From Isoptericola halotolerans (GTDB lineage Bacteria; Actinomycetota; Actinomycetes; Actinomycetales; Cellulomonadaceae): a DNA stretch of 64,000 nucleotides. A program made the translations under genes and the position numbers. The DNA is taken from positions 186,001 through 250,000 of the forward strand of contig NZ_PVTX01000002.1 of NCBI RefSeq assembly GCF_003003075.1, given 5' to 3'. Numbering within the stretch: the first letter of the stretch is position 1; the number at the start of each line of letters is the position of its first letter. Positions 7,645 to 23,097 of the stretch are shown in pieces. The notes below the pieces were generated by a model, which worked only from the letters and a program-made list of their open reading frames with translations, ran no database searches and had not been told where the DNA came from.

Positions 7645-9021
7645 GTGACCAGCCTCCCCCCGTTCGCCTCCGACAACTACGCCGGCACCCATCCCGAGGT
7701 CCTCGCCGCGGTGGCCGCCGCCAACGACGGGTTCGCCGTCGCCTACGGTGACGACCCGTGGACCGCCCGGCTCGACGCCCGGGTCGCCGAGGTGTTCGGT
7801 CCCGGGGCGCTCGCGTACCCGCTGATCAACGGCACGGGCGCCAACGTCGTCTCCCTCATGGCGCTGTCCGAGCGCTGGGGCGGCGTGGTGACCTCCGACG
7901 TCGCGCACGTCAACACCGACGAGAACGGCGCGCCCGAGCGGGTCGGCGGGCTCAAGATGCTCCCCTGCCCCTCCGCCGACGGGCGGATCGAGCCGTTCCA
8001 CGTGGAACGGTGGGCCGGGCAGCGTCACGACGTGCACCGTGCCCACCCCGGCGTGCTGTCCCTGACGCAGTCCACCGAGCTCGGGACCGTCTACCCCGTC
8101 GAGGCGCTGCGGGCGCTCGTCGACACCGCGCACGGGCTCGGCATGGCCGTGCACGTCGACGGGTCGCGGCTCGCGAACGCCGCCGCCGCGCTCGGCTGCT
8201 CCCTGCGCGCGCTCACCACCGACCTCGGCGTCGATGTCGTCTCGCTCGGTGCCGCCAAGATCGGCGGCATGATCGGCGAGGCCGTCGTGGTGCTCGCGCC
8301 GCAGGACGCGCCCGTGGTGCCCGGCTCCGGGTACGACGGCGGAGCGTTGCGCGAGCGCGCGGCCGCTGCGGTCCCGTTCCTGCGCAAGTCGACGATGCAG
8401 CTGGCGTCCAAGACGCGGTTCGTCTCGGCACAGCTGCTCGCGCTGCTCGGGGAGCCGGGAGCGCCCGTGGGGGGCGGGGCGGCGGCCGCGCCGGTGACGC
8501 CGGGCGCCGCCGGGGCGGGCGCCGGTCCCGCGGCCGCAGGGTCGGGCGCCGGTCCCGCGGGCGCAGGGTCGGGCGCCCGGGCGGGCGCCGGTCCCGCCGG
8601 CGCCGGTCCCGCCGGCGCCGGTCCCGCGGGCGCAATAGCGCGTGCCGCCGCCGAGCCGCTGTGGTGGCGCAACGCGGTGCACGCCAACGCGATGGCCGCG
8701 CGACTGCGGGCCGGCCTGGAGTCGTCCGGGGTGCTCGCCCCGGCACCTGCCGAGGGGGATGCGCCCAGGGCAGGTGCCGCGCCCGAGGGTGGTGCCGCCG
8801 TCGGCGGCGTGCGCATCACGCGGCCCGTCGAGGCGAACGCCGTGTTCGCGACGCTCCCCAGGGCGGCGGCGGACCGGGTGCGCGAGCAGGCACGGTTCTA
8901 CGACTGGGCACCGGGGGAGACGCCCGATCGCGTCGAGGTCCGCTGGATGTGCTCCTGGGACACGCCGGCAGAGGCGGTCGACGCGTTTGTCGCCGCCGTC
9001 GCCGACGCCCTGGCCCGGTGA
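7645..9021 (+). CDS. Threonine aldolase / beta-eliminating lyase family PLP enzyme with Ala-Gly-Pro insert
   Basis: A 458-residue fold-type I PLP enzyme of the low-specificity threonine aldolase family (L-threonine to glycine and acetaldehyde). It opens TSLPPFASDNYAGTHPEVLA, and has FAVAYGDDPWTARLDARVAEVFG, AVHVDGSRLANAAAALG and the PLP-lysine region VVSLGAAKIGGMIGEAVVV. The family is usually about 340-360 residues. The excess is mainly an Ala/Gly/Pro segment (8461-8640, about 60 residues) built from tandem GGCGCCGGTCCCGC-like repeats, plus a second Gly/Ala-rich insert near 8740-8805. I start at GTG 7645, where a -10-like TACGCT 6 bp upstream suggests a leaderless mRNA; the longer upstream frame looks non-coding. 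The last base of the stop codon begins a long palindrome shared with the next convergent gene. Confidence 0.85.
   Translation: MTSLPPFASDNYAGTHPEVLAAVAAANDGFAVAYGDDPWTARLDARVAEVFGPGALAYPLINGTGANVVSLMALSERWGGVVTSDVAHVNTDENGAPERVGGLKMLPCPSADGRIEPFHVERWAGQRHDVHRAHPGVLSLTQSTELGTVYPVEALRALVDTAHGLGMAVHVDGSRLANAAAALGCSLRALTTDLGVDVVSLGAAKIGGMIGEAVVVLAPQDAPVVPGSGYDGGALRERAAAAVPFLRKSTMQLASKTRFVSAQLLALLGEPGAPVGGGAAAAPVTPGAAGAGAGPAAAGSGAGPAGAGSGARAGAGPAGAGPAGAGPAGAIARAAAEPLWWRNAVHANAMAARLRAGLESSGVLAPAPAEGDAPRAGAAPEGGAAVGGVRITRPVEANAVFATLPRAAADRVREQARFYDWAPGETPDRVEVRWMCSWDTPAEAVDAFVAAVADALAR
8461..8640 (+). repeat. In-frame tandem GC-rich repeats in the threonine aldolase-like gene
   Basis: Variants of the 15-bp unit GGCGCCGGTCCCGCG/C recur here, encoding GAGPA and similar pentapeptides. 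Repeat number could vary between strains by slippage. The segment lies between family-conserved regions, so it is probably a surface loop. Confidence 0.75.
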
Positions 9022-9088
9022 CTGATCGTCACTTCGGTTTCTGTCCGGCACTCCGGACTGCCGGACAGAAACCGAAGTGACGATCAGT
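9021..9088. repeat. 30-bp-stem palindrome between convergent genes (copy 1)
   Basis: Arms 9021-9050 and 9059-9088 are exact inverted complements starting ACTGATCGTCACTTCGG, with the 8-bp loop CTCCGGAC. The stop codon of the + gene overlaps its left edge and the TGA of the minus gene (9084-9086) lies inside the right arm. It can act as a bidirectional terminator. The core is clearly homologous to the palindrome at 10120-10177. Confidence 0.9.
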
Positions 9089-10034
9089 ACGAGGCGCCCG
9101 GAAGCGGGAGCAGCGGATTGACCTTCAGCGATCCCCGCAGCGGCACCGGGAACGCCCTCAGCAGGGTGGCCGTCGCGGCGGCCGGGTCCGGACCGTCCTT
9201 CGCCGTGAACCGCAGCGGCCGCACGCCCAGCCGCGCAGTGATGGCGTCCTCGCGCACCTTGTCCTCGAACCGCGCGCGATCCGCGTCGTAGCGGTCGCCG
9301 AAAGAGCCGTCCACGTACTTGACCCGGCCGTCGAACTCGACCAGCACCCGGTGCTCCGCCCAGCCCAGGTCCACGCGATAGCAGCGCCCGTCCACCTCGA
9401 CCGGGAGCTGCGTGCGGGGCCGGGGCAGCCCTGCCCGCAGGGCCAGGTAGCGGATCCACGTCTCCCACGGCGACTCGGCACCCGGGTCGGCATTCTCGAG
9501 GACCCATCGCGCCCGCGCCGTACCGTTGCGTCGCCGCGGCCGGGCCAACAGCTCGAGTGCCGCTTCGCGAGACAGCCCATCGGCCAGTGCCCAGTCCGCG
9601 ATCACCAGCGCGTCCAGCGGGTGGAGCGTCAGCGCGCAGTCGACGACCGTCCGGAGCAGCGGCGTCGCCGGCAGGCCTCGCAGCACCACGCGCTCGTCCG
9701 GGACCCCGCGCCGTCGCACGATGTCCGTCGCGGCGCGGCTGCTCGGGCTGGACGGCACCAGCACGTTCACCCGCCGTGGGAGCCGCCACAGCGGCGCGCC
9801 CCACAGGAAGGCCGCGCTCTCGTGGCTGAACACGTGGCGCGCACGGAGCTGCCGGTGGACCGCGTGGAGGCGGTCCAGCGTGAGCCGCCGCGCCGCCGCG
9901 AGACCGCTCTGGTCCGAGGTCGCCGCACGGTAGGCGCCCCGGCGCACCCGCTCCAGGTCGCCGCTCAGCAGCCCGCGCCGCAGGCCGCGGCGATCGTGCT
10001 CGCGGGCGATGAGCACTGCGTCGTCGTGGGTCAC
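9084..10034 (-). CDS. AbiEi-like winged helix + DUF559 (Vsr-like) nuclease-fold protein, paralog 1
   Basis: A 316-residue protein. The N-terminus resembles the AbiEi antitoxin-like winged helix domain (REHDRRGLRRGLLSGDLERVRRGAYRA). The middle has HVFSHESAAFLWGAPLWRLP and the C-terminus is DUF559/Vsr-like: YRVDLGWAEHRVLVEFDGRVKY. The D...EFDG..K spacing suggests a PD-(D/E)XK-type active site, but activity is inferred. Such genes occur as several paralogs in many actinobacteria without known function; a second copy is at 21829-22863. I chose GTG 10034, with a possible -10 (CAACCT, minus strand 10046-10041) 6 bp upstream. Its 3' end lies inside one palindrome and a homologous palindrome lies 86 bp upstream of its start, so the gene is bracketed by matching repeats. 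Confidence 0.75.
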   Translation of the reverse strand: MTHDDAVLIAREHDRRGLRRGLLSGDLERVRRGAYRAATSDQSGLAAARRLTLDRLHAVHRQLRARHVFSHESAAFLWGAPLWRLPRRVNVLVPSSPSSRAATDIVRRRGVPDERVVLRGLPATPLLRTVVDCALTLHPLDALVIADWALADGLSREAALELLARPRRRNGTARARWVLENADPGAESPWETWIRYLALRAGLPRPRTQLPVEVDGRCYRVDLGWAEHRVLVEFDGRVKYVDGSFGDRYDADRARFEDKVREDAITARLGVRPLRFTAKDGPDPAAATATLLRAFPVPLRGSLKVNPLLPLPGASY

Positions 10035-10119
10035 GCGACCAGGTTGCCGCGGCGCGCGGCACGGGCAGGGCCGCATGCCGACATCTGTGGACGGCCTGGA
10101 CCTGGGGAAACGGATGCAA

Positions 10120-10177
10120 TCGTCACTTCGTGTTCTGTCCGGCAGTCCGGACTGCCGGGCACAACACGAAGTGACGA
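10120..10177. repeat. Long palindrome (copy 2, homologous to 9021-9088)
   Basis: Outer arms 10120-10134 and 10163-10177 (TCGTCACTTCGTGTT and its complement) are perfect. After one mismatch and one G-T pair the pairing continues to the centre CCGG, giving about 29 paired positions. It shares TCGTCACTTCG, TTCTGTCCGGCA and CCGGACTGCCGG with the palindrome at 9021-9088, so both derive from one element. It lies upstream of the DUF559 gene and upstream of the divergent SRPBCC gene. Confidence 0.88.
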
Positions 10178-10298
10178 CCAGAGGATCAGCGCCAGTGGAG
10201 GCGACAGCCGATTCGGCCGGGTCTCGAGGCTCGCGTTACCGTCGTGCTGACAGGCCGCGACGGGGCGGCCCGCCCGCATGACCAGTCCAGGAGCCGCC

Positions 10299-10748
10299 AT
10301 GACCACCGAGCACACCACCGGGTTCACCGCCACCGCCACGACCCACGTCGCCGAGCCGCCGGAACGGGTCTGGAACGAGCTGATGCACCCCGGAGCCCGC
10401 TGGGTCCTCGGCGCCAACATCGAGACGGACTTCCGGCCCGGCAGCCCCATCACCTTCGAGGGACACTTCTTCGGCCGCCCGTTCGCCGACAAGGGCCAGG
10501 TCATCGCCGCTGAGCGCCCGCACCTGCTGCACTTCACGCACTACTCGCCGCTGAGCGAGCTCCCCGACGTCCCCGAGAGCTACCACGAGGTCCGCATCAC
10601 GCTCGTGGCCGACGACGGCGGCACCCAGGTCACGGTGGAGCAGCACAACATCGACACCGCCGACCACGCCACCCGCTCCGAGCAGCACTGGCGGGAGGCC
10701 CTGTCCACGCTCGCGCACCGGGACTCCGCGCCGACCTCCGGACCGTGA
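10299..10748 (+). CDS. SRPBCC (AHSA1-like) domain protein
   Basis: A 149-residue START/Bet v 1-like protein with a hydrophobic ligand pocket. TTGFTATATTHVAEPPERVWNE is the usual first strand plus helix, followed by ITFEGHFFGRPFADKGQVI, HYSPLSELPDVPESYHEVRI and GGTQVTVEQHNIDTADHATR, matching AHSA1-type SRPBCC proteins, which end in a helix where Trp is common (EQHWREAL here). The ATG at 10299 has AGGAG 7 bp upstream, better than the ATG at 10278. The stop overlaps the start of the GH3 gene (GTGA), so the two are coupled. Ligand and role are unknown. Confidence 0.82.
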   Translation: MTTEHTTGFTATATTHVAEPPERVWNELMHPGARWVLGANIETDFRPGSPITFEGHFFGRPFADKGQVIAAERPHLLHFTHYSPLSELPDVPESYHEVRITLVADDGGTQVTVEQHNIDTADHATRSEQHWREALSTLAHRDSAPTSGP

Positions 10749-11986
10749 CCCGGCGCCGGACCGTCACGCTCGTCGCGCTCACCTGCGCGGCCGTCACCGC
10801 CTGCAGCAGCCCGGGGAGCCAGCCCGCGCCGACGCCCGCCCCCGAGCGGCCCGCGACGGGCAGCGCGGCCGGCCCCTCGCCGTCGGGCACCCCGGGTGCG
10901 CGACCGTCGCCCGGCACGGAGCCCACCACGGTGCCCGACGGCGGCACCCCGGACGCGCTGGACCCTGCGGCCGGGTGGAGCCTGGAGCGCAAGGTGGGCC
11001 AGATGCTCATGGTGGGGACCCCCGCCGAGGCGGCGACGGTGGGCGACGCGACACGGACGGCCATCGAGGAGCACCACGTGGGCAACGTGTTCCTGCACGG
11101 CCGCAGCGAGGCGGGCGTCGAGGCGGCGCGCGCCCTCGTGGAGTCGGCGACCGGCCTGGCACGCGACGCCGACGCGACGCCGATGCTCGTCGCGACCGAT
11201 CAGGAGGGCGGATCGGTGCAGGTGCTGCGCGGGCCGGGGTTCTCGGAGCTTCCGCCCGCGACGGAGCAGGCGACGTGGGATCCCGACCGGCTGGAGGACG
11301 AGGCGACCGCGTGGGGCGCCGAGCTCGCGGACGCGGGCGTCAACCTCAACCTGGCGCCCGTGATGGACCTGGTGCCGGCGGACAACCAGTCGGCCAACGC
11401 GCCGATCGGCTACTTCTCGCGCAACTACGGCAACACCGCGCGGTCCGTGGTGCGCTCGGCGACCGCGTTCTCCGCCGGTATGCAGGCCTCCGGCGTGGAG
11501 CCCGTGATCAAGCACTTCCCCGGGCTGGGGTACGTCACCCAGAACACGGACACCACCGAGCGCGTCACCGACGACACGGTGACCGCGGACTCGGCCTCGG
11601 TCGAGGTGTTCGCCGAGGGGATCGACGCCGGAGCACGGTTCGTCATGCTCTCGAACGCCGTGTACACCCGGATCGACCCGGAAAACCCGGCGACGTTCTC
11701 GCCCGCGGTCGTGGATCTGCTGCGCGACGAGCTGGGATTCGACGGCGTCGTCGTCACCGACGACGTCTCGGCGGCCGCGGCGGTGGAGAACCTGGCCCCC
11801 GCCGAGCGAGCGGTGGAGGCGGTCGACGCCGGAGCGGACCTGATCCTGGCCTCCGCCGACCCGACGGTCGTGCCCGCGATGGCCGAGGCGCTGGTGGCCC
11901 GGGCCGAGGAGGACCGGGAGTTCGCCGCGACGGTGGACGCCGCCGTCGCGCGGGTGCTGGCCGCGAAGGCCGAGCTCCGCGGCTGA
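10745..11986 (+). CDS. Glycoside hydrolase family 3 lipoprotein, NagZ-like but with altered acid/base loop
   Basis: A 413-residue exported GH3 protein. The signal peptide TLVALTCAAVTACSS carries a lipobox before Cys. A Pro/Thr-rich linker leads to the TIM barrel: WSLERKVGQMLMVGTP, PMLVATDQEGGSVQ, NLNLAPVMDLVP, IKHFPGLGYVTQNTDTTERV, GFDGVVVTDDVSAAAA. The TDD aspartate is the GH3 nucleophile. NagZ enzymes normally carry KHFPGHG...DSH, whose histidine helps acid/base catalysis; here Leu replaces the first His and the DSH is replaced by DTT. It may therefore use another acid/base or act on a different glycoside. GTG start coupled to the upstream SRPBCC stop. Followed by a strong terminator hairpin. 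Confidence 0.85.
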   Translation: MTRRRTVTLVALTCAAVTACSSPGSQPAPTPAPERPATGSAAGPSPSGTPGARPSPGTEPTTVPDGGTPDALDPAAGWSLERKVGQMLMVGTPAEAATVGDATRTAIEEHHVGNVFLHGRSEAGVEAARALVESATGLARDADATPMLVATDQEGGSVQVLRGPGFSELPPATEQATWDPDRLEDEATAWGAELADAGVNLNLAPVMDLVPADNQSANAPIGYFSRNYGNTARSVVRSATAFSAGMQASGVEPVIKHFPGLGYVTQNTDTTERVTDDTVTADSASVEVFAEGIDAGARFVMLSNAVYTRIDPENPATFSPAVVDLLRDELGFDGVVVTDDVSAAAAVENLAPAERAVEAVDAGADLILASADPTVVPAMAEALVARAEEDREFAATVDAAVARVLAAKAELRG

Positions 11987-12003
11987 CCACCCGGCACGAG
12001 CGC

Positions 12004-12046
12004 GCGGGCCCGGGGCAGGTGCGGTGCGCTCCTGCCCCGGGCCCGC
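12004..12046. terminator. Bidirectional terminator hairpin
   Basis: A perfect 16-bp stem (GCGGGCCCGGGGCAGG at 12004-12019 and its complement at 12031-12046) with an 11-bp loop sits between the convergent GH3 gene and the secreted basic protein gene. Confidence 0.85.
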
Positions 12047-12079
12047 TCGCCGGGCGTGTCCGGTGTCAGGTGGCCGGGC

Positions 12080-12814
12080 TCAGAGGCGCGGCGTCCCCAC
12101 CGTCCGGCCGCCGACCACCGTGCTGCTCGGCGGCACGAGGACGCGGTACTTGTAGCGCTTGCCGGAGGAGAACTGGTAGGTCACCTGACCGTTCGACTTC
12201 AGCCGGACGATCTTCTTCGTCTTCCAGGTGCCGTTGGCCTTGTACTGGATCTTGACCTTCTTGCCGGCGTAGGGCTCCCAGGCCTTCGTGGCCGTGTACT
12301 GCTTGACCCCGACCTTGACGGTCTTGCGCTTGCCGTCGGCCCTGACCTGGATGACGTGGCCGTACTTGAGCTTGCCGGCGATCGCGGACTTCATCGTGAA
12401 CTTGCCGCCCGAGACGCTGGTGTCGCGATAGGTCTCACCCTCGTACACGACGCGGACGTTCTTCACCTGGAACGTGCCGCGGCCCCAGGACGACTTCGCC
12501 TTGATGTAGCCCGTGAGGCTCTTGCCGCCGGAGTAGGCGTAGCCGAGGTCCACCTTCGAGGCGACCTTCTTGCTGCCCCGGTAGACGTCACCGTAGATGT
12601 CGGCCCAGCCCGTGAGGGTGCCGACCCTCGCCCTGGTGGTGAACTGGTAGTACTTGGTCTTCGCGGAGATGGCGGCGCCGTCGTAGCTGGGCTTGACCGA
12701 CACCGAGGTGACGTCGATCGGCGAGCCGGCCGCGGCAGCCGGGGCCACCAGGGTGCCGAGCAGGAGAGACGCGGCCGCCACCGAGGTGGCGGCGAGCCGG
12801 AGAAGTGCGCGCAT
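12080..12814 (-). CDS. Secreted lysine-rich protein of unknown function
   Basis: A 244-residue exported protein. The signal peptide MRALLRLAATSVAAASLLLG...APAAAA is followed by a mature part of alternating Lys, Tyr, Thr, Gly and Val with repeated phrases such as YYQFTTRARVGTLTGWADIYG and KKVKIQYKANGTWKTKKIVR. The pattern is typical of beta-sandwich or SH3-like extracellular domains, and its basic charge would favour binding to acidic cell-wall polymers. No catalytic motif is seen. AAGGA lies 6 bp before the ATG. I do not recognise a named family. Confidence 0.7.
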   Translation of the reverse strand: MRALLRLAATSVAAASLLLGTLVAPAAAAGSPIDVTSVSVKPSYDGAAISAKTKYYQFTTRARVGTLTGWADIYGDVYRGSKKVASKVDLGYAYSGGKSLTGYIKAKSSWGRGTFQVKNVRVVYEGETYRDTSVSGGKFTMKSAIAGKLKYGHVIQVRADGKRKTVKVGVKQYTATKAWEPYAGKKVKIQYKANGTWKTKKIVRLKSNGQVTYQFSSGKRYKYRVLVPPSSTVVGGRTVGTPRL

Positions 12815-13102
12815 GGAGATCCTTCCAGAAGGTCGATTCCGATGTCGGCCCCGTGACGGGCGTCCCCCTGGGTGCGCGCGGTCGTGCAGGCAGGTCGCCG
12901 ACCCACCGGAAGAACCTGGTCCCACGCGCAGCTCGGTCGACGGCGTCGGACCCGGCTCCTGGCGCATGCACCATCGGCGAGGCCTGCGGCCTGACGCGCA
13001 GGATCATAGACGGACGCGAGCACGCCGTCGGCCCACGTCCCACGCCTCGGCGAGTCGTGGCGGGGACCGGCCGACGAGGCGCCGTCGGCCGCTCAGGCGC
13101 TG
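12815..13102. other. Non-coding 288 bp
   Basis: No convincing gene on either strand; the open frames here have arginine/proline-rich shadow composition. It should contain the promoter of the secreted basic protein (minus strand) and the 3' end of the pitA-partner transcript. No clear terminator stem was found. Confidence 0.5.
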
Positions 13103-13393
13103 CTAGCTGTGGCCGCCCGCGGCGAGGAAGACCAGACCGGCGCCCACGGCGCCCACGACCGTGCCGAAGCAGAGCAGGGCGCCCACGAGCCGGGCCGGCG
13201 ACGGCCGCGCGATGACGACCGGACCCTTGGTCTCACGGGGCGTGCCGCTGCTGCGCTCCGGGGCTTCCGGCGTCTCCGACGTCCCGGCCACGAGACGCAG
13301 GCCGAGCGCGAAGAGTGCGGGGATGCCCGCCCCGATGAGGAGGCCCGCCACGACCACCTGGCCGAGGGCGCTCCACTCGATGAGACCGTTCAT
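13103..13393 (-). CDS. Small membrane protein cotranslated with PitA
   Basis: A 96-residue protein with two predicted membrane helices: ALGQVVVAGLLIGAGIPALFALGL (about 9-32) and LVGALLCFGTVVGAVGAGLVFLAA (about 68-91), joined by a charged loop. Its ATG overlaps the pitA stop (TGATG), so it is translationally coupled and probably a partner or modulator of the phosphate transporter. The family is unnamed to me; similar short proteins follow pit genes in other actinobacteria, to my recollection. Confidence 0.75.
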   Translation of the reverse strand: MNGLIEWSALGQVVVAGLLIGAGIPALFALGLRLVAGTSETPEAPERSSGTPRETKGPVVIARPSPARLVGALLCFGTVVGAVGAGLVFLAAGGHS

Positions 13394-14673
13394 CACTGCT
13401 CTCCCTTGCCGCTGGTGCCCGGACCGCCCGGGGTCGTCGCCGAGATCACCGGGGTCATGGCCGAGGCGAGGCGCTCCTCGACGACGGGGCCGACCTGCGG
13501 CTCGCCGACCTCGCCCGTGGTCGCCACCGAGGTGCGCAGGCGGGCGCCCTTGGCCTCGTCCCACTCCTCGTTGACGTTGCTGTGGTCGACGGGCTTGCGC
13601 CGGGAGGCCACCCAGATGGCGATCGAGGTGCCGACCAGGAGCGCGAAGACCAGGAACGTGCCGAAGAACCCGCCGATGACGTGCTGGATCCAGTAGCAGA
13701 CGGCGCCGACGATGCCCGCAGCCGGCAGCGTCAGGCCCCAGGCGGCGAGCATCCGGCCGGCGACGCCCCAGCGCACCTTTGCACCGGGCATGCCGACGCC
13801 GGAGCCCAGGATCGACCCGGTGGCCACGTGGGTGGTGGACAACGAGAAGCCGAAGTGGCTCGAGAGCAGGATCACCGCGGCCGACGACGTCTCCGCGGCC
13901 ATGCCCTGGCGGCTGTCGATCTCGACGAGGCCCTTGCCGAGAGTGCGGATGATTCGCCAGCCGCCGAGGTAGGTGCCCAGCGCCATGAAGAACGCGCAGG
14001 AGATGATCACCCAGAACGGCACGCTGGAGTCCGCGGGAACGGCACCCGCGGTGATGAGCGCCAGCAGGATGATGCCCATCGACTTCTGCGCGTCGTTGGT
14101 GCCGTGCGCGAGCGAGACGAGCGAGGCCGAGCCGACCTGGCCCCAGCGGAAGCCGCGCGAGGTGACGTCCTGCGAGACGCCGCGCGTCAGCCGGGCCACG
14201 AGGAAGGTTCCCACCGAGGCGACGCCGATCGCGATGACCGGTGCCAGCAGCGCGGGCAGGAGCACCTTGGACAGCACGCCCGACCAGAGGACACCGGCGG
14301 TGCCTGCGGCGGCCAGGACGGAGCCGATCACGCCGCCGACGAGGGCGTGCGACGAGCTCGACGGCAACCCGAGCAACCAGGTGAGCAGGTTCCAGACGAT
14401 GCCGCCCACGAGTCCGGCGAACACCACCTCGAGGCTGATCGCGCCGGCGTCCACCAGCCCCTTGGCGATCGTCGCGGCGACCGCCAGGGACAGGAACGCG
14501 CCCGCCATGTTGAGCACGGCGGACAGCAGCACGGCCACCTTGGGCTTGAGCGCGCGGGTCGCGATGGAGGTGGCCATCGCGTTGCCGGTGTCATGGAAAC
14601 CATTCGTGAAGTCGAAGGCCAGAGCGGTCACGACGACGAGCACGAGGAGGAGCGTCTCGGTCACGGGTCCCAT
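13393..14673 (-). CDS. pitA: PitA-type inorganic phosphate transporter
   Basis: A 426-residue PiT-family permease, driven by H+ or Na+, importing metal-phosphate complexes. Both PiT signature repeats are visible: ALAFDFTNGFHDTGNAMATS near the N-terminus and SLVSLAHGTNDAQKSMGIIL in the second half (GFHDxxNA / AHGxNDxQ). About ten hydrophobic segments follow the family pattern. SSSHALVGGVIGSVLAA and LSTTHVATGSILGSGVG are the conserved SSSH/STTH loops. A cytoplasmic tail of about 80 residues is charged. Five 11-bp PHO-box units lie 42-97 bp upstream, so phosphate starvation control by PhoP is likely. The downstream small membrane gene overlaps its stop. Confidence 0.93.
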   Translation of the reverse strand: MGPVTETLLLVLVVVTALAFDFTNGFHDTGNAMATSIATRALKPKVAVLLSAVLNMAGAFLSLAVAATIAKGLVDAGAISLEVVFAGLVGGIVWNLLTWLLGLPSSSSHALVGGVIGSVLAAAGTAGVLWSGVLSKVLLPALLAPVIAIGVASVGTFLVARLTRGVSQDVTSRGFRWGQVGSASLVSLAHGTNDAQKSMGIILLALITAGAVPADSSVPFWVIISCAFFMALGTYLGGWRIIRTLGKGLVEIDSRQGMAAETSSAAVILLSSHFGFSLSTTHVATGSILGSGVGMPGAKVRWGVAGRMLAAWGLTLPAAGIVGAVCYWIQHVIGGFFGTFLVFALLVGTSIAIWVASRRKPVDHSNVNEEWDEAKGARLRTSVATTGEVGEPQVGPVVEERLASAMTPVISATTPGGPGTSGKGEQ

Positions 14674-14714
14674 GGTGGGGCCCGCGCTCGTCCGATTCGG
14701 TCCGTCAGGTGGCT

Positions 14715-14770: not shown

Positions 14771-14808
14771 CGAACCTGGCGCTCGAACGGCTCGAACGGC
14801 TCGGTCGG

Positions 14809-17031
14809 TCAGACGTGGTCGGCGAGCCCCAGCGTCTCCAGCGTCCAGGCGTGCTCGAACGCGATCTCTTCCCAGCGCGCGTAGCGCCCCGACACCCCGC
14901 CGTGGCCCGCGGACATCTCGATCTTGAGCAGCGCGGGCGCCCCGGCCGCCCGCAGGCGCGCCACCCACTTGGCCGGCTCGACGTACAGCACGCGCGTGTC
15001 GTGCAACGACGTGACCGCCAGGATCCGCGGGTAGTGCGAGGCGTCGTCGGGCACGTTCTCGTACGGCGAGTACGAGCGCATGTACGCGTACACCTCCGGG
15101 TCGGCGAGCGGGTTGCCCCACTCCTCCCACTCCACGACCGTCAGCGGCAGCGACGGGTCGAGGATCGAGGTGAGCGCGTCGACGAACGGCACCCCGGCGA
15201 GCACGCCCGCGAACATCTCCGGCGCCAGGTTCGCCACCGCGCCCATGAGGAGCCCGCCGGCGCTGCCGCCGTCGGCCACCATGCGCTCCGGCGTGGTCCA
15301 CCCCGTGCCGACCAGGTGCTTCGCGCACGCCACGAAGTCGGTGAACGTGTTGCGCTTGCGGTCCAGCCGGCCGCCCTCGTACCAGGCGCGCCCCATCTCG
15401 CCGCCGCCCCGCACGTGCGCGACGGCGAACACGACACCGCGGTCGAGCAGCGACAGGCGCGGCACGCTGAAGTACGGGTCCATGCTGATCTCGTAGGCGC
15501 CGTAGCCGTAGAGCAGCAGCGGGGCCGGGTCCGCCCCGGTGCCCGCGGCGTCCAGCGTGACGGCGTCCCGCTTCCACACGAGCGAGATGGGCACGCGGGT
15601 GCCGTCCTCGGCCGTGGCCCACTCGCGGCTCTGCGCGTAGTCGCCCGGGTCGTAGCCGCCGAGGACCTCCTGCCGCTTGCGCACCACCCGCTCGCCGGTG
15701 GCCAGGTCGACGTCGTAGACCGTGGCCGGCGTGACGAACGACGTGCCGTGCACGCGCAGCGCCGGCGTCGCGAACTCGGGGTTGGCGCCCAGCGCCGCGG
15801 AGTGCAGCGGCTCGTCGAACTCGAGCTCGCGAGCGGTCCACGGGACGCCCGGCACGAGCCCGTCGAGCGCGACGACGGCGACCCGGGGCGTGGCGTCGCG
15901 GCGCACGCCCAGCACCACGTGCGTCGCGAACGCGTCCACGGACTCGAGGCGCACGTCCGGGTCGTGGGGCACGACGACGGCGCCTGCCGCCGGGTCCGCC
16001 GGCCCGGCACCCGGTGCGGGCACGTCCGCGGCGACCAGCTCGAAGTTCTGCGCCCGCTCGTTGTGCAGGATCAGCAGCGCCGGGCCTCGACCCGGCAGCA
16101 CGGCGGGCTCGACCGTGTACTCGACGCCCTCGCGGCGCTCCCACACGACCCGGAACTCCCCCGTCGGGTCGTCCGCCTCGAGGATCCAGGACTCGCTCGT
16201 GTTCTTGGAGCCCAGCTCGATCTGCAGGAACCGGTCGTCGCGCGAGAGCCCGACGCCGACCCAGAAGCGTTCGTCGGGCTCGGAGAAGACCATGACGTCG
16301 TCGCTCGCCGGGGAGCCGACCTCGTGCCGCCAGATCCGGTACGGCCGCCACGCGTCGTCGACGGTCGGGTAGAAGACGTAGCGCCCGTCCGGGCTGATGA
16401 CCGCGCCGGGGAACGTCTGCTCGATCGTGTCCGGCAGGTCCGCGCCGGTCACCAGGTCCCGCACCCGCACGGTGTAGCGCTCGTCGCCCGTGGTGTCCAC
16501 GGCGTACGCCAGGCGCGTCCCGTCCCCGGAGACCGCGAAGGAGCCGAGCGAGAAGAAGTCGTGGCCCTCGGCCTCCGCGTTCTGGTCCAGGAGGAGCTGC
16601 TCGCCGGCGGGCACCTCGCCCGGCGTGAGCGCCGGCGGGGTCCAGTCCTCCGGCCCGGAGACCGGCACACGGGCGTTCAGGGGGTACTGCCTGCCCTCGA
16701 CGGTGCGCACGTAGTACCAGTGGCCGCCCTGGCGGACCGGCACCGACAGGTCCGACTCCAGGGTGCGGTCCTTGATCTCCTGGAAGACCCGGTCGCGCAG
16801 GGGCGCCAGGTGCGCGAGCTGCGCCTGCGTCCAGGCGTTCTCGGCCTCCAGGTGGGTGATCACCTCCGGGTCGTCCTTGGCGCGCAGCCACTCGTACTCG
16901 TCGACGAACGTGTGGCCGTGGTGCGTGCGCTCCGCCGGACGGCGGTCGGCGACCGGTGCGCTCACGGCGGGACGGACGAGGTTCTCGGGGGCGGCGGGCT
17001 CGGTCTGGGCGGCGGTGGCGTCGTCGGGCAC
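14809..17031 (-). CDS. S9 family prolyl oligopeptidase (oligopeptidase B-like)
   Basis: A 740-residue cytosolic serine peptidase that cleaves short peptides. The N-terminal beta-propeller (about 30-440) begins with FVDEYEWLRAKDDPEVITHL, the usual opening of oligopeptidase B (D.Y.W.....P.V). The C-terminal alpha/beta hydrolase has LLLYGYGAYEISMDPYFS, VFAVAHVRGGGEMGRAWYE, the nucleophile VADGGSAGGLLMG, and the His in EMSAGHGGVSGRY. The PHDPDV and GGGEMGR features fit oligopeptidase B, which prefers basic residues at P1. No signal peptide. The start ATG at 17031 faces the liv operon across 321 bp. 3' end is followed by the pitA control region. Confidence 0.92.
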   Translation of the reverse strand: MPDDATAAQTEPAAPENLVRPAVSAPVADRRPAERTHHGHTFVDEYEWLRAKDDPEVITHLEAENAWTQAQLAHLAPLRDRVFQEIKDRTLESDLSVPVRQGGHWYYVRTVEGRQYPLNARVPVSGPEDWTPPALTPGEVPAGEQLLLDQNAEAEGHDFFSLGSFAVSGDGTRLAYAVDTTGDERYTVRVRDLVTGADLPDTIEQTFPGAVISPDGRYVFYPTVDDAWRPYRIWRHEVGSPASDDVMVFSEPDERFWVGVGLSRDDRFLQIELGSKNTSESWILEADDPTGEFRVVWERREGVEYTVEPAVLPGRGPALLILHNERAQNFELVAADVPAPGAGPADPAAGAVVVPHDPDVRLESVDAFATHVVLGVRRDATPRVAVVALDGLVPGVPWTARELEFDEPLHSAALGANPEFATPALRVHGTSFVTPATVYDVDLATGERVVRKRQEVLGGYDPGDYAQSREWATAEDGTRVPISLVWKRDAVTLDAAGTGADPAPLLLYGYGAYEISMDPYFSVPRLSLLDRGVVFAVAHVRGGGEMGRAWYEGGRLDRKRNTFTDFVACAKHLVGTGWTTPERMVADGGSAGGLLMGAVANLAPEMFAGVLAGVPFVDALTSILDPSLPLTVVEWEEWGNPLADPEVYAYMRSYSPYENVPDDASHYPRILAVTSLHDTRVLYVEPAKWVARLRAAGAPALLKIEMSAGHGGVSGRYARWEEIAFEHAWTLETLGLADHV

Positions 17032-17352
17032 CCGGCCAGCCTACGGCGCGGCACGGACAGCGGGGCTGGGCCTCCGCCGTCCGGCCCGGGCCGGACGATG
17101 GTCACGTCTCTGCAACGGTTTCCGCCCGTTGCACCGCCAGACCCGCACGTTGCCCCGATATCGCCCGTTCGCGTGATGCGCGTGTGACACGGGGGTGTCG
17201 TCCACGTCACAGTGCGCCGTTACACTTCCCGCACGTTCGTACCGCTCGCCGGTCAATGGGGGCTTCAGCATGCCTACATGGTCGAGGTCGGTGCGGCCGG
17301 TCCCGGGGTGACCCGGGGCATCTGACCATGACCCGACGGAGGACCCCGTCCG
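17032..17352. promoter_or_regulatory. Divergent regulatory region, S9 peptidase / livHMGF
   Basis: No gene fits these 321 bp. Toward liv, TTACACT at 17220-17226 is a plausible extended -10 element, and GTGTGACACGGGGGTGTCGTCCACGTCAC at 17182-17210 holds paired TGTGAC/GTGTCG/GTCAC half-sites that could bind a regulator. GGAGG precedes the livH ATG by 11 bp. All are inferences from position and sequence. Confidence 0.4.
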
Positions 17353-18774
17353 ATGACAGCGGACCGACCCACCACCACGAGCCGATGGAGCCGCCTGCTC
17401 GCGGCGATCGCGCTCGTGCTCCTGCCGGCGATGCTCGTCGCACCACCAGCGACGGCGAGCACCGACGAGCCACCCTGCGAACCCGACAACGAGACAGCCT
17501 GCATAGCCGTCCTGGTGCTGAACGCGGACAACGACCGCATCAGCGACGTGGCGATCACCGTCGCCGGAGCCGGATTCACCGCGGACCTGACCACCAACGC
17601 CGACGGTCCCGCGACCGTCGCCGCCCCCGAGGTCGGTCAGTACACGGTCACCATCGACCCGGCCACGCTGCCCGACGACCAGCAGCTCCCCGAGGGCGCC
17701 GAGACCGAGGTGACCGTCACCGCGCAGTCCGGCGGCACCGCTCGCGCCGCGTTCCGGGTCGGGCCCGGCGCCGAGGCGCCGGCCACCCCGTCGGGCGAGG
17801 CGTCCGACGGCGCCCCCGCCGACTCGACCACCACCGACGACGGCGACGGGGTGGCGGCAGCGCCCGAGGGCGACGCGTCCGAACGGGCGCTCACCTTCGC
17901 GCAGGTCTGGCAGCAGATCGGCTCCGGGCTCCGGTTCGGGCTGCTCCTCGCGCTCGCCTCCATCGGGCTGAACCTCGTGTTCGGCACGACCGGGCTGTCG
18001 AACTTCGCGCACGGCGAGCAGTTCGCGCTCGGTGCCGCGGTCGGCTTCATCACCATCAATCAGATGGGCATGTCGATCTGGGTCGGCGGGCTCCTGACCC
18101 TGGCGGTCTGCGCGCTGACCGGCCTCGCGCAGGACTCTGCGATCTGGCGCCCGCTGCGCAAGCGCAACGTGCCGGTGATGCAGCTGATGATCGTCTCCAT
18201 CGGGCTCTCGATCACGCTGCAGTACGTCATCCAGCTGATGATCGGCGGCGGTTCCGAGCGGATCCTCTCGCGGAACCCGCAGCCGCTGACGATCGCCGGC
18301 ATCACGCTCAGCACCGCGTCCTGGCTGTCGATGGTCGTCGCGCTCGTGTGCGTCCTCGGCATCGCGTGGTTCCTCACCCGCACCCGCATCGGGCGGGCGA
18401 CGCGCGCCGTGTCGGACAACCCCGCCCTGGCCTCGGCCACCGGGATCGACCCCGACCGGATCATCCGCATCGTGTGGATCATGGCGACCGGATTCGCCGC
18501 ACTGGCGGGCCTGATGTGGGGCGTGTCCTTCGGCTCCTTCAACTGGCAGCTCGGCGTGCAGCTCCTGCTGCTCATGTTCGCCGCGGTCACCCTCGGCGGA
18601 CTCGGCACCGCGCTCGGCGCGTTCGTCGGGTCGCTGCTCATCGGACAGGTGGTCGAGCTGTCGAACCTGTTCATCCCCAGCGACCTGCGGTACGCCTCCG
18701 CGCTGGTGATCCTCATTCTCGTGCTCCTGTTCAGGCCGCAGGGCATTCTCGGCCGCCGCGAGCGGATCGGCTGA
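17353..18774 (+). CDS. livH: LivH-type branched-chain amino acid ABC permease with N-terminal exported domain
   Basis: A 473-residue inner-membrane permease of a hydrophobic amino acid uptake system. Residues from about 190 on are a standard LivH: GLLLALASIGLNLVFGTTGL, NFAHGEQFALGAAVGF, RNVPVMQLMIVSIGLSITLQ and the end LFRPQGILGRRERIG. Unusually, a signal peptide (about 12-36, ending PPATAS) and about 140 residues with a beta-sandwich look come first, including DRISDVAITVAGAGFTADLTTN and GQYTVTIDPATLP, as in carboxypeptidase-regulatory-like or CNA-B-like domains, then an acidic linker. Ordinary LivH has about 290-310 residues. The extra domain should face the outside and might dock the binding protein. 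First gene of livHMGF. Confidence 0.9.
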   Translation: MTADRPTTTSRWSRLLAAIALVLLPAMLVAPPATASTDEPPCEPDNETACIAVLVLNADNDRISDVAITVAGAGFTADLTTNADGPATVAAPEVGQYTVTIDPATLPDDQQLPEGAETEVTVTAQSGGTARAAFRVGPGAEAPATPSGEASDGAPADSTTTDDGDGVAAAPEGDASERALTFAQVWQQIGSGLRFGLLLALASIGLNLVFGTTGLSNFAHGEQFALGAAVGFITINQMGMSIWVGGLLTLAVCALTGLAQDSAIWRPLRKRNVPVMQLMIVSIGLSITLQYVIQLMIGGGSERILSRNPQPLTIAGITLSTASWLSMVVALVCVLGIAWFLTRTRIGRATRAVSDNPALASATGIDPDRIIRIVWIMATGFAALAGLMWGVSFGSFNWQLGVQLLLLMFAAVTLGGLGTALGAFVGSLLIGQVVELSNLFIPSDLRYASALVILILVLLFRPQGILGRRERIG

Positions 18775-18787
18775 AGGGAGACGCATC

Positions 18788-19789
18788 ATGGAAGAATTCC
18801 TCCGCATCCTCACGCAGTCGATGGGCGAGCTGCTCGCCCCGACGACCGCGGCCTACGCGATGGCCGCCATCGGCCTCAACCTGCACTTCGGGTACACGGG
18901 TCTGCTCAACATGGGCCAGGCAGGCTTCATGCTGCTCGGCGCCTACGGGTTCGGCATCACCCTCACCACGGGTGGTTCGTTCTGGCTGGCACTGCTGGTC
19001 GCGATCGCGGCCGGCGTGCTGTTCGCCCTCATCCTCGGTATGCCGACGCTGCAGCTCCGCGGCGACTATCTGGCCATCGTGACCATCTCCGCCGCGGAGA
19101 TCGTCCGCTGGTTCGGCCGCTCCACCCTGTGGCAGGAGTGGACGGGCGGCGCGTCCGGCCTCCAGGGTCGCTACTACAAGGAACCGTTCCAGGAGCTCTC
19201 GTTCCTTCCTGAGGGCAGGTTCGCCCTGGGCCCGCTGGAGTACATCAACACCGGTTCCGACTCCTGGTGGACGCGCATCGTGGCCTGGGGCCTCGTCGCC
19301 CTCGTGCTCGTGTTCGTCTGGCTCATCACCCGCAGCCCGTGGGGCCGCGTGCTCAAGGGCATCCGCGAGGACGAGGACGCCGTGCGCGCGCTCGGCAAGA
19401 ACGTCTACTCCTACAAGCTGCAGGCACTGGTCATCGGTGGTGCCATCGGCGCGCTCGGTGGCGTGATCTTCGCGCTGCCCGCGGCGATCGTGCCCGACTC
19501 GATGGGTCGCACCATGACGTTCTTCGTCTGGACGATCCTGCTGCTGGGTGGCGCGGCCACCGTGTTCGGGCCCGTGCTCGGATCGATGATCTTCTTCGCG
19601 GCCTACATGTTCATGCGCACCGGCATGCGGGCGCTGGCCGAGAACACCGGCGTCGGTGACGTCATCACGACCACCAACGTCGAGCAGATCGGCGGCATGC
19701 TCGTCGGTGTGACCCTGATGCTTCTGGTCATCTTCCGACCACAGGGCATCCTCGGGAACAAGAAGGAGCTGGCGTTCAATGTCCGTTGA
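18788..19789 (+). CDS. livM: LivM-type branched-chain amino acid ABC permease
   Basis: A 333-residue membrane protein, partner permease of LivH. It shows MAAIGLNLHFGYTGLLNMGQAGFMLLGAYG, the LivM LNxxxGYTGLxxxGQA motif, then MPTLQLRGDYLAIVTISAAEIV and the EAA-like cytoplasmic loop SPWGRVLKGIREDEDAVRALGKN. It ends VIFRPQGILGNKKEL. About eight to nine hydrophobic segments are seen. It follows livH by 13 bp with AAGGGAG upstream, and its last 11 bp overlap livG, so translation is coupled. Confidence 0.93.
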   Translation: MEEFLRILTQSMGELLAPTTAAYAMAAIGLNLHFGYTGLLNMGQAGFMLLGAYGFGITLTTGGSFWLALLVAIAAGVLFALILGMPTLQLRGDYLAIVTISAAEIVRWFGRSTLWQEWTGGASGLQGRYYKEPFQELSFLPEGRFALGPLEYINTGSDSWWTRIVAWGLVALVLVFVWLITRSPWGRVLKGIREDEDAVRALGKNVYSYKLQALVIGGAIGALGGVIFALPAAIVPDSMGRTMTFFVWTILLLGGAATVFGPVLGSMIFFAAYMFMRTGMRALAENTGVGDVITTTNVEQIGGMLVGVTLMLLVIFRPQGILGNKKELAFNVR

Positions 19790-20686
19790 CGACACCACGA
19801 CAGCTGCAGCCGAGGTGCTGCGCTCCGTCGAGCACGTCCCCGGCGCGGCCAAGCCGAACCCCCTCGTGGTGGCCGACCACGTCACCCGGAAGTTCGGCGG
19901 CATGACCGCCGTCGACGTCGACCACCTCGAGGTCCAGGAGGGCGTCATCACGGCCCTCATCGGGCCCAACGGCGCCGGCAAGACCACGCTGTTCAACCTG
20001 CTCACCGGGTTCGACCGCCCCAACACGGGCGAGTGGAGCTTCCAGGGCAGGTCGCTCAGCGGCAAGAGCGGCGCCGCCGTGGCGAAGGCCGGCATGGTCC
20101 GCACGTTCCAGCTCACCAAGGCGCTCTCGCGCCTCACGGTGCTGCAGAACATGCTGCTGGCCTCGCCGTCGAACCCCGGCGAGAAGCTCGCGCTCTCCTG
20201 GCTGCCGTTCCTGTGGAAGAAGCACGAGGCCGAGACGACCGCCAAGGCGATGGAGATCCTCGCCCGGTTCAAGCTCGACACCAAGGCCGCCGACTACGCG
20301 GGCTCCCTGTCGGGCGGTCAGCGCAAGCTGCTCGAGATGGCTCGGGCGCTGATGACCGACCCGACGATCATCATGCTCGACGAGCCGATGGCCGGCGTGA
20401 ACCCGGCGCTCGTGCAGTCGCTCCTGGGACACGTCCAGGCACTGCGCGACGAGGGCATGACCGTGCTGTTCGTCGAGCACGACATGCACGCGGTGCGCCA
20501 CATCTCGGACTGGGTCGTCGTCATGGCCGAGGGCCGCATCGTGGCCGAGGGGCCGCCCGGCAGCGTGATGAAGGACCAGGCCGTGGTGGACGCCTACCTC
20601 GGCGCCCACCACGACACCGACCTCGGGGACGACGCCCTGCTGGACCCCGAGGTCCTGGCCCGGCTCGAGGCAGAGGAGGAGAAGCG

Positions 20687-20690
<4 letters not shown>
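19779..20690 (+). CDS. livG: LivG-type branched-chain amino acid ABC ATPase
   Basis: A 303-residue ABC ATPase. Walker A is GPNGAGKTTLF, the signature SGGQRKLLEMARALM, Walker B IIMLDEPMAGVNP and the H-loop VLFVEHDMHAV. LivG proteins have the GLARTFQ-type motif, here GMVRTFQLTKALSRLTVLQN, and a C-terminal extension ending DAYLG, both present. The first 30 residues are an extra low-complexity leader. ATG overlaps livM by 11 bp, and its TGA overlaps the livF ATG. It pairs with LivF on the LivHM permeases. Confidence 0.94.
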
Positions 20691-21580
<890 letters not shown>

Positions 21581-21589
<9 letters not shown>

Positions 21590-21630
21590 TAGCGGCCGCG
21601 CCGAGGTAGTAGCGGCCACGCCGAGGTAGT
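21581..21630 (+). repeat. 20-bp repeat array 1 (3 units)
   Basis: GAG(A/G)TAGT cores begin at 21583, 21603 and 21623, exactly 20 bp apart, each preceded by GCC. The first copy (GAGATAGT) supplies the livF TAG stop. The array reads in the same direction as livF. Confidence 0.9.
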
Positions 21631-21637
21631 ACGGCGC

Positions 21638-21675
21638 GACGGCGGACGTCCCGGGACACCGGGGCGTCCGCCGTC
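21638..21675. terminator. Hairpin downstream of livF
   Basis: GACGGCGGACGTCCCGG (21638-21654) pairs with CCGGGGCGTCCGCCGTC (21659-21675), 17 bp with one G-T pair and a 4-bp loop. It is the likely livHMGF terminator, between repeat arrays 1 and 2. Confidence 0.75.
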
Positions 21676-21750
21676 GTCGTTCCGCGGCCCGACGACGGCG
21701 CACCCGCGCGTGCGTTCTGCGCGGTTCGGCGTTCCCCGGTAGGCATTCGC

Positions 21751-21826
21751 GCGCCGAGGTAGTGCGGGCACCGCCGAGGTAGTGCGGGCACCGCCGAGGT
21801 AGTACGTGCACCGGCGAGGTAGTCGG
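21751..21826 (+). repeat. 20-bp repeat array 2 (4 units)
   Basis: GAGGTAGT begins at 21756, 21776, 21796 and 21816, exactly 20 bp apart. Full units read GCCGAGGTAGTGCGGGCACC with variation only in the last bases; GTGCGGGCAC is itself a mini-hairpin. The array abuts the 3' end of the DUF559 gene that follows on the minus strand. Confidence 0.92.
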
Positions 21827-21828
21827 CC

Positions 21829-22863
21829 TCACGCTGCCCGACGGCGCCACAGCGCAGCCCAGTAGGCCGCGCGCACGCGCGCTCCCAGCTCGTCGAGGTC
21901 TGCCAGGTCCTCCCAACGGACGCGGATCACGATCCAGCCCTCCCGCTCCAGCGCCCGCTGGCGCGCCAGCTCGGCCCGCCGCGCTGCCTCCGGATCGCCG
22001 TACTCACCGCCGCTGTACTTGACGTCGCCGTCGAACTCCACCGCGACCTTCAGGTCCTCCCAACCGAGGTCCACGTAGTAGCTCCCCGACCTGGTCGGCG
22101 CTTCGATCTGGCACTCCGGCCGCGGGAGGCCGGCATCGACGGCGGCAAGCCGCGCGACCGACTCCCCGGGGGACCCTGCACGAGGGTCGCACAGCTCGAG
22201 GATGCGCCGCGCCTGGACGATGCCGCGCTTTCCCTTGGATGTGGACATGAGGCGGTCGACCTCGCGAGGGTCGGCCCCGCCCCGGAACAGGGAGTCACAG
22301 ACCACCAGGGCGGCCGCTGTCGGGAGGGTCCGAACACAGTCGACCAGAGTGCGCTCCTTCGTCGTCACCGGGACGCCGCCCACCTGGTCGCGGTCTCGCT
22401 GCGGCAGGCTCGTGTGGTGCCGTCGGACGATCGACGCCTCGTCGCTGTCGACGTGGGGGTTCACCGCGTGGGTGACATGCACCAGTCGCGGCATCCGGTA
22501 CGTCCAGGCGCCGTGAAGCAGCGCGGCGGTCGAGTGGGAGAACCATGCTGACCCGCAACCGTTCTCCAGGACGCGCCGGACCTCCCGCAGGATCGACTGC
22601 TCGTACTGCTCGTGGTCGCCACCTGCCGTGGCGTCGCGCCTCTCGATGTAGAGCGAGCGCCCCAGGCGCTCGATCCGCCCCTGTGCGACGTGCCTCGACA
22701 ACGCCTCGCCGTCGGTGTGCGTGATGTCCAGAGCAGGGGGCGGCGCCGGTGCCTCTGCCCGGTTCGCCGAGTGCATCGCACGCACCGGCGAGCCCGGGGC
22801 TCTCATCGTGGCCAAGATCCGGGTGATCCGCCGGATCGCTGCGGTGTGGATCTCTTCGTTCAT
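21829..22863 (-). CDS. AbiEi-like winged helix + DUF559 (Vsr-like) nuclease-fold protein, paralog 2
   Basis: A 344-residue protein with the same order as paralog 1. The N-terminal helix-turn-helix-like part ends LSRHVAQGRIERLGRSLYIER, the middle has SAWFSHSTAALLHGAWTYRMP, and the C-terminal nuclease-like domain has YYVDLGWEDLKVAVEFDGDVKY, then REGWIVIRVRWEDLADLDEL. The shared VDLGW...VEFDG.VKY core may hold the metal-binding Asp/Glu/Lys; catalysis is unproven. I start at ATG 22863; a longer frame to 22962 exists. It sits inside the liv locus, between livF and the binding-protein gene, and is bracketed by 20-bp repeat arrays in inverted orientation (21756-21823 and 23005-23093). This suggests the gene and repeats arrived or spread together. 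Confidence 0.75.
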   Translation of the reverse strand: MNEEIHTAAIRRITRILATMRAPGSPVRAMHSANRAEAPAPPPALDITHTDGEALSRHVAQGRIERLGRSLYIERRDATAGGDHEQYEQSILREVRRVLENGCGSAWFSHSTAALLHGAWTYRMPRLVHVTHAVNPHVDSDEASIVRRHHTSLPQRDRDQVGGVPVTTKERTLVDCVRTLPTAAALVVCDSLFRGGADPREVDRLMSTSKGKRGIVQARRILELCDPRAGSPGESVARLAAVDAGLPRPECQIEAPTRSGSYYVDLGWEDLKVAVEFDGDVKYSGGEYGDPEAARRAELARQRALEREGWIVIRVRWEDLADLDELGARVRAAYWAALWRRRAA

Positions 22864-22983
22864 GCGGCGAGGCTCGCGCGCGACGACCCACCGGTGTGCC
22901 GCCGTCGGGCCTGGATGTGGACCGTGCAACCTGGGGGTGCGGTCGGAGCGACACCTCTCCACGGCGCGACCGCAGCGCGGCCG

Positions 22984-23097
22984 CGCTACTGCGGCGAGCG
23001 GGGCACTACCTCGGCGAGCCAGGCACTACCTCGGCGAGCGGGGCACTACCTCGGGGAGCGGGGGCACTACCTCGGCGAGCGGGGCACTACCTCGGGG
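22984..23097 (-). repeat. 20-bp repeat array 3 (5 units plus a degenerate one)
   Basis: ACTACCTC (GAGGTAGT on the minus strand) begins at 23005, 23025, 23045, 23066 and 23086, spaced 20, 20, 21 and 20 bp; a decayed unit (GCTACTGCGGCGAG) starts near 22985. Orientation is opposite to arrays 1 and 2, so arrays 2 and 3 form an inverted pair around the DUF559 gene. Confidence 0.92.

Follow-up and report, generated by a model that had tools for sequence, protein, structure and literature searches.

Within a 64,000-nucleotide stretch of the Isoptericola halotolerans genome (assembly GCF_003003075.1, contig NZ_PVTX01000002.1, positions 186,001 to 250,000; hereafter the window, with position 1 its first letter), two paralogous genes encode proteins that, according to structure modelling and profile matches, consist of an AbiEi-type DNA-binding part followed by a Vsr/DUF559-type nuclease, and each gene is bracketed by matching repeats. 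Flanking pairs recur around related genes, the array-type repeats are dispersed genome-wide, and the dispersed unit changes together with the unit carried by the gene. Also, relatives vary at two sites in whether they have the gene and at one site in whether they have a dispersed array. These features suggest, with a probability that we place at roughly two in three, a system resembling the REPtrons of repetitive extragenic palindromic (REP) elements, in which a non-HUH nuclease would bind, cleave and spread its own repeats by the copying route outlined below.

Paralog 1 (9084..10034, minus strand; 316 amino acids, with a GTG start at 10034 and an in-frame ATG at 10076) lies between a downstream palindrome at 9021..9088, with 34-nt arms of 97% complementarity, and an upstream one at 10119..10181, with 29-nt arms (10120-10177) of 93% complementarity. 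Both had been called homologous in a sequence-only reading of the window, and indeed they are 87% identical over 63 nt; the coordinates which that reading gave are right. The downstream palindrome starts at the stop codon of the convergent gene of a beta-eliminating lyase family protein (7519..9021, plus strand) and also spans the stop codon of paralog 1. On the right lies an AHSA1 family gene (10299..10748, plus strand), and in relatives the same two neighbours flank an empty site.

The AlphaFold2 model of paralog 1 (mean predicted local distance difference test score 94.3) retrieved Rv2827c (E 2.8e-5) and AbiEi of S. agalactiae (E 5.6e-5) in Foldseek and, below significance, PvuRts1I, I-Bth0305I (template modelling score 0.71 of target) and Vsr, while a profile search recovered 3hrl, an endonuclease-like protein of known structure (E 7.5e-5). 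Residues 15-179 match PADLOC AbiEi models, and Pfam returns a weak AbiEi_4 match only. In the nuclease part (residues 188-280; 9195..9473, minus strand) the columns E191, D222, E233, D235 and G236 are invariant in 52/52 aligned members of the family. The four acidic residues, which we take to be those of a PD-(D/E)xK/Vsr-type active site, are conserved as they would be in an active nuclease, an activity predicted here from sequence. At E<=0.001 Pfam detects in the 52 members AbiEi_4, MTES_1575 (17/52), DUF559 (11/52) and AbiEi_1 alone, with neither a transposase family domain nor a HUH/Y1 catalytic domain among them. The domain composition that had been read from the sequence is therefore supported by Foldseek, Pfam and PADLOC, and a fold unrelated to that of RAYT by the first two. 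No AbiEii (DUF1814) toxin partner was found among the five scanned neighbour proteins of both paralogs (lyase, AHSA1, GH3, ABC ATPase and periplasmic binding protein).

Paralog 2 (21829..22863, minus strand; 344 amino acids) is of the array type and matches REase_MTES_1575, AbiEi and DUF559, each under the Pfam cut-offs. It is situated between a livF-like ABC ATPase gene (20687..21589, plus strand) and a livK-like gene for a periplasmic binding protein (23179..24480, minus strand), both conserved neighbours. As first described, arrays of period 20 lie on both sides, one of them inverted: array 1 (21579..21635, minus strand), whose first unit includes the TAG stop codon of livF, and array 2 (21752..21823, minus strand), immediately past the stop of paralog 2, face array 3 (22992..23097, plus strand) upstream of the gene. 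Array 4 (26906..27001, plus strand) is dispersed and has no nuclease gene, being located at the 3' end of a minus-strand frame (26989-30669). The window contains 19 copies of ACTACCTCGGCG with at most one mismatch, where 0.47 would be expected, and this 12-mer occurs 135 times genome-wide, its reversed control 0 times. Low-complexity tandem repeats at 48894-49193 (periods 9, 18, 24, 36 and 39 bp), inside a predicted gene, appear by eye to be unrelated to these arrays.

In the own genome (G000; 3.85 Mb in 22 contigs) a search with paralog 1 gave five matches and one with a five-member profile seven. Four further members (L025, L040, L041 and L119) have repeat pairs of their own, and for the seventh, L169, no open frame matched. 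The palindromes of L025 (2850-2913 and 3936-4003), L040 (2362-2437 and 3505-3562) and L041 (2684-2759 and 3716-3789, all in locus coordinates) differ in sequence from gene to gene. Palindromes of the TGTGGGTGCACGA type occur at each end of L119 (G000:C6:72666-73517), which was detected by the profile alone.

A survey of 18 Isoptericola genomes at E<=1e-8 gave 114 profile matches in 18/18 genomes, corresponding to 111 loci, in 109 of which the gene was placed by HMMER; 66 genes above 150 bits form a close class and 43 below 100 bits a distant one. Flanks were compared by local alignment of the 450 bp upstream with the 450 bp downstream, leaving out L148 and L169 (no open frame matched) and L083, L138 and L164 (short flanks). 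The threshold of 20 was reached by 63/65 close and 30/41 distant members, and a score of 25 by 59/65 and 26/41. For 212 null comparisons made within loci, the 99th percentile was 19.4 and the highest score 40. A crude gene caller applied to 20 stretches of 20 kb supplied 203 ordinary genes, of which seven scored at least 20 and none 25. Fisher tests against the ordinary genes gave 1e-50 (close) and 9e-23 (distant), values that are overstated because orthologues are counted. A null obtained by swapping loci was dropped, since orthologous loci share matching neighbour genes, and the within-locus null and the ordinary genes were used instead. The idea that matching flanks around two paralogs exceed chance thus finds clear backing in the genus. 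The repeats involved are mostly palindromes of 50-85 bp or arrays of ~20-bp units.

Hairpins with a score of at least 14 were found upstream of 26/66 close and 9/43 distant members and downstream of 37/66 and 16/43, with control positions ~900 bp away yielding 1/63, 2/65, 0/41 and 0/43 and gene interiors 0/66 and 0/43. Ordinary genes had such hairpins upstream in 11/203 cases and downstream in 13/203. Strong hairpins on both flanks characterise 23/66 close and 8/43 distant genes and 0/203 ordinary ones. The flank score of 20 and the hairpin score of 14 were set once initial data had been seen, and were then applied unchanged to the 203 ordinary genes and to the set from outside the genus. One distant clade (L133, L134, L135, L142 and L147) shows a constant frame with a variable middle: its palindromes share outer stems, containing CGTCTCTG, and a similar loop, and the inner stem is species-specific and matches on both sides of the gene.

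Beyond the genus, named genomes were scanned with one nuclease-domain motif and the best 80 of at least 440 loci were retained, a motif-selected set rather than an unbiased sample; exclusion of the Isoptericola loci L190, L191 and L207 left 77, and of the short L206, 76. These come from genera that include Promicromonospora, Cellulomonas, Curtobacterium, Blastococcus, Geodermatophilus, Mycobacterium, Nocardioides and Kribbella. Matching flanks were present in 58/76 against 2/226 null comparisons, and hairpins in 30/76 upstream and 26/76 downstream against 0/76 and 1/76 in controls. The first outcome that the sequence-only reading had named as refuting it was thus not seen, since flanking repeats accompany most of the paralogs examined in relatives. 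Plasmids gave 3 weak matches and phages none; viral contigs also gave none, with patterns built from one protein each and able to find close relatives only.

The two flanking copies also resemble each other more than they resemble those of other genes. Among 33 palindrome-type genes, the best match of the upstream copy was the gene's own downstream copy in 28 (ties counted), and the median normalised score was 0.69 for own pairs versus 0.12 for other pairs. Palindrome sequences vary greatly between genes and, at a shared site, between species: for the seven genes compared at the L040 site the own partner was best each time (0.44-1.00 versus at most 0.36), and at the paralog 1 site of G012 a related gene, L084 (53% identity), carries an unrelated palindrome pair. 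This matching was redone on palindromes alone because a matrix at shared sites (own copy best in 5/8, 2/3 and 9/12, and in 31/65 of the close class) is confounded by matches between orthologous neighbour genes and by a gene that is flipped in three genomes.

Array-type genes between livF and livK occur in the own genome and 11 others, and probably also in G015 (L096, at a contig end). Because the position is common to these genomes, they represent one inherited locus. Units on both sides within ~600 bp of the gene are CGAGGTAG in ten genomes and CGAGTCAG in three, so that orthologues at one locus differ in their repeat. The dispersed arrays, counted per genome as tandem pairs at period 20, follow the same division. 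Pairs of CGAGGTAG number 226 in G000, 121 in G001, 140 in G004, 98 in G005, 171 in G006, 163 in G010, 46 in G012, 114 in G015, 179 in G016, 286 in G017 and 14 in G011, with 0 in the other seven and 0 in every genome for the reversed control; they occur in 10/10 genomes whose livF-livK gene has CGAGGTAG and in 1/8 others (Fisher 2.5e-4). For CGAGTCAG it had been recorded before counting that G003, G008 and G013 only would contain pairs, and they do (249, 201 and 55, with 0 in the other 15; Fisher 1.2e-3), though species are not independent in either comparison. Kinship alone is not the explanation, since in a LivK tree G013, with CGAGTCAG, is sister to G006, with CGAGGTAG. The gene tree groups the three CGAGTCAG proteins weakly (support 0.25), and a list of residues separating them from the CGAGGTAG proteins, drawn from 3 versus 9 sequences, proves nothing. 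The livF-livK gene of G012 (L123, G012:C3:223309) is broken, and that genome has the fewest CGAGGTAG pairs of the ten that carry the gene, as if the family decayed after its gene.

In the own genome, 29 array clusters (31 loci on contigs C1-C4) are distributed over 11 convergent gaps, 15 codirectional gaps and 0 divergent ones, two of the remainder being called within genes and one at an edge. Several begin at a stop codon, and where a cluster occupies both strands the strand order is that seen around the gene in 12/15 (crude gene caller). Rfam returned nothing near the gathering score for the one dispersed array element submitted. The second outcome named as refuting, repeats located far from such genes, does apply to the array family, but in the manner expected of a REP/RAYT-type system: the dispersed copies are present in genomes with the cognate gene and follow the unit of that gene, G011 excepted. 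Inside some dispersed array pairs sits a separate palindromic repeat (L018:2412-2504; core ~56 bp, often 85-95% identical), copies of which are found in many Isoptericola genomes, including some free of CGAGGTAG arrays; the window segment 5316-5382 is 79% similar to it over 67 bp.

The paralog 1 palindrome is tied to its gene more loosely than the arrays are to theirs. At E<=0.001 it occupies four places in the own genome, two of them solitary, and a longer query adds a weaker third solitary copy at C2:257993. Counts per genome are 4 in G000, 6 in G007, 3 in G012 and 2 weak ones in G014, with none in 14 others, and besides G000 the orthologue was found in G007 only (82%). Spread is well supported for the array families and thinly for the palindrome families.

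The gap after a ccsB-like gene (L018, named by eye), which holds a dispersed array (~430 bp) in the own genome, was compared in 16 relatives and illustrates the turnover of repeat families at one place. G001 and G006 contain CGAGGTAGGC arrays there, and G013 has GTCAG-type ones. The GAGATAGA unit is present in G009, G010 and G011, and it also borders their respective genes L109, L112 and L077 on both sides; in each of these six relatives the array unit is that of a gene which they possess. G014 has a TGCGAGCGCGATTTCGG-type palindrome in the gap. Leftover units (one or two) persist in G012 and G007, G002, G003 and G008 show plain hairpins, and G004, G016 and G017 lack anything similar; in G005 no junction was readable. 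The alignable gap measures 28 bp in G012 versus 387 in the own genome. Five GAGATAGA units were met in a sample from elsewhere in the G011 genome.

Empty sites, which had been proposed as something to look for, exist at the paralog 1 and L040 sites. At the former, the alignable parts of the two neighbours stand 36-154 bp apart in G001, G003, G006, G008, G013, G015, G016 and G017, compared with ~1.2-1.3 kb in the own genome; the distance is 242 bp in G002, G004 and G005 have other, longer inserts, and G007 has the orthologue. At the L040 site the family gene is present in eight genomes and missing in G012, G008, G004, G009 and G014, with a palindrome relic remaining in G012 and one palindrome in G004. 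These relics speak for loss at that site, and insertion and loss are not separable everywhere. In G002, G010 and G011 (3/8 of the gene-bearing genomes) the gene is flipped relative to its neighbours, which is what recombination between the flanking repeats would give.

A REPtron-like sequence of events could link these observations. The N-terminal AbiEi-type part would bind the unit of its own repeat family, whether long palindrome or ~20-bp array, and the Vsr-like C-terminal domain would nick or cut there or close by. New copies of the repeat, chiefly just past stop codons, might then arise through repair or strand transfer at the cuts, and the same copying would homogenise the repeats and keep the pair around the gene alike. 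The gene with its two flanking repeats would be the source locus, which would mostly keep its place through descent and would frequently be lost; palindromes or array pairs dispersed over the genome would be its non-autonomous progeny.

Several observations weigh against this scheme. Flank scores fall below threshold in 2/65 and 11/41 members of the genus and 18/76 outside it (L123, one of the two close members concerned, still has CGAGGTAG units on both sides), and the flank counts include orthologues. The paralog 1 palindrome has few solitary copies, two of them clear, and is present in G012 (3) and G014 (2 weak), where the orthologue was not found. G011 has its 14 CGAGGTAG pairs with no such gene found and G012 its 46 with a broken one; these pairs may be relics. 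At the ccsB site 6/16 relatives have neither an array nor a family palindrome, G004, G016 and G017 being empty there despite many arrays elsewhere, and a 100-kb sample of G009 contained 0 GAGATAGA units though its gene carries them. The genes occupy conserved sites with no recent jump seen, and the aligned empty alleles are too diverged at their junctions to reveal a target-site duplication or to place a junction to the base.

The patchy presence of the gene at fixed sites would suit a homing-type element, in which the nuclease cuts gene-less chromosomes, repair copies the gene along with its repeats, and dispersed repeats are by-products or decoys. The empty sites at the paralog 1 (8 genomes) and L040 (5 genomes) loci and the resemblance of the nuclease domain to I-Bth0305I and Vsr agree with it; yet under homing one would not expect each genome to have 46-286 array pairs, most of them without a gene, nor these pairs to change together with the gene, the Foldseek E value to I-Bth0305I is no better than 0.74, and six aligned empty alleles of the paralog 1 site lack a palindrome of its family. 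We regard homing as improbable. Slightly less probable again is a regulator or nucleoid protein with a nuclease fold of structural use, for which the upstream repeat would be an operator and the dispersed repeats binding sites or terminators. AbiEi and Rv2827c, according to the accessible text of PMC7319586, do bind 23-bp inverted repeats in their own promoters and autoregulate, and the arrays do lie at gene 3' ends as terminators would; however, an operator does not account for a matching copy that lies downstream, close to the stop codon, 0/29 array clusters of the own genome lie in a divergent, promoter-bearing gap, and E191, D222, E233 and D235 are invariant.

That another enzyme, such as a RAYT or an insertion sequence transposase, moves the repeats, and that nuclease genes merely collect them in insertion-tolerant surroundings, is very unlikely. 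RAYT-driven REP elements have a similar layout in the available part of PMC6006769, but ordinary genes with matched flanks amount to only 7/203, and both the private family of each nuclease gene and a dispersed unit that follows the livF-livK gene would be left without a cause. Plain bidirectional terminators or chance repeats in high-GC DNA, finally, were ruled out by the null comparisons and keep almost no probability: some downstream hairpins are indeed found between convergent gene pairs, and in some relatives the corresponding places hold hairpins that are unrelated, but this leaves the upstream copies, the matching of the pairs, the homologous copies that stand alone and the non-hairpin arrays without an explanation. 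The REPtron-like system is thus the reading that we prefer.

If it is correct, protein-driven repeat families arose more than once, with non-homologous enzymes, and many unannotated palindromes and short arrays past stop codons in actinobacteria would be accounted for. We give somewhat better than even odds to the broader proposal of a second, independently evolved nuclease-repeat system over Actinomycetota, in which AbiEi-Vsr nucleases each make and keep a private repeat family and a change of specificity rewrites the repeats of a genome. A large number of natural nucleases would then come with their likely targets marked in the genomes that encode them, candidate target families being CGAGGTAG, CGAGTCAG, GAGATAGA and those of the TTCGGCA- and TGTGGGC-type, and the livF-livK orthologues with different units would make specificity directly testable.

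REP families are classic abundant bacterial repeats, and only HUH enzymes are known to accompany them. A search of open-access literature found no account that links repeats to DUF559 or AbiEi-nuclease genes, and no paper combining DUF559 and AbiEi. In the accessible portions of the sources concerned, the genome paper of Isoptericola sp. AK164 gives a count of tandem repeats and does not say what they are (PMC10425560), and the MTES_1575 REase forms part of a long protein with several domains (PMC3710099).

The proteins share the N-terminal AbiEi fold with the AbiE type IV toxin-antitoxin systems (AbiEi, Rv2827c), relatives that bind inverted repeats (PMC7319586, as accessible), and differ in possessing a nuclease domain and in having repeats that flank the gene and also occur elsewhere. 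Their C-terminal domain is like that of Vsr and the I-Bth0305I EDxHD homing endonucleases by fold, below significance, and like DUF559 and MTES_1575 restriction endonucleases by Pfam; unlike both groups they are AbiEi fusions bracketed by repeats, in neither intron nor intein at the loci read, although alleles without the gene at the same site recall homing endonuclease genes. The closest parallel is with the REPtron, for which the available text of PMC6006769 describes a single RAYT gene for each repeat family, with repeats that flank it and others dispersed outside genes, as well as co-evolution of gene and repeats and loss of the gene (the REP/TnpA-REP pair is also treated in what is accessible of PMC8266576). 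Here too the gene lies between its own repeats, intergenic repeats are dispersed with each array family tied to one protein type, repeats co-evolve with the protein, presence is patchy with loss, and several families coexist in a genome. The repeats themselves depart from REPs, 20-40 bp long in the accessible part of PMC3733652, in being mostly near-perfect palindromes of 50-85 bp or arrays of ~20-bp units in inverted pairs; by eye, the GT[AG]G foot beside a hairpin is absent from the CGAGTCAG and GAGATAGA units and from most palindromes listed, and GTAG lies within the CGAGGTAG units. An AbiEi-type part with a Vsr-like nuclease stands where RAYT has an HUH/Y1 domain, and because the catalytic domain differs the protein is not a RAYT, even though gene and repeats are arranged like those of a REPtron.

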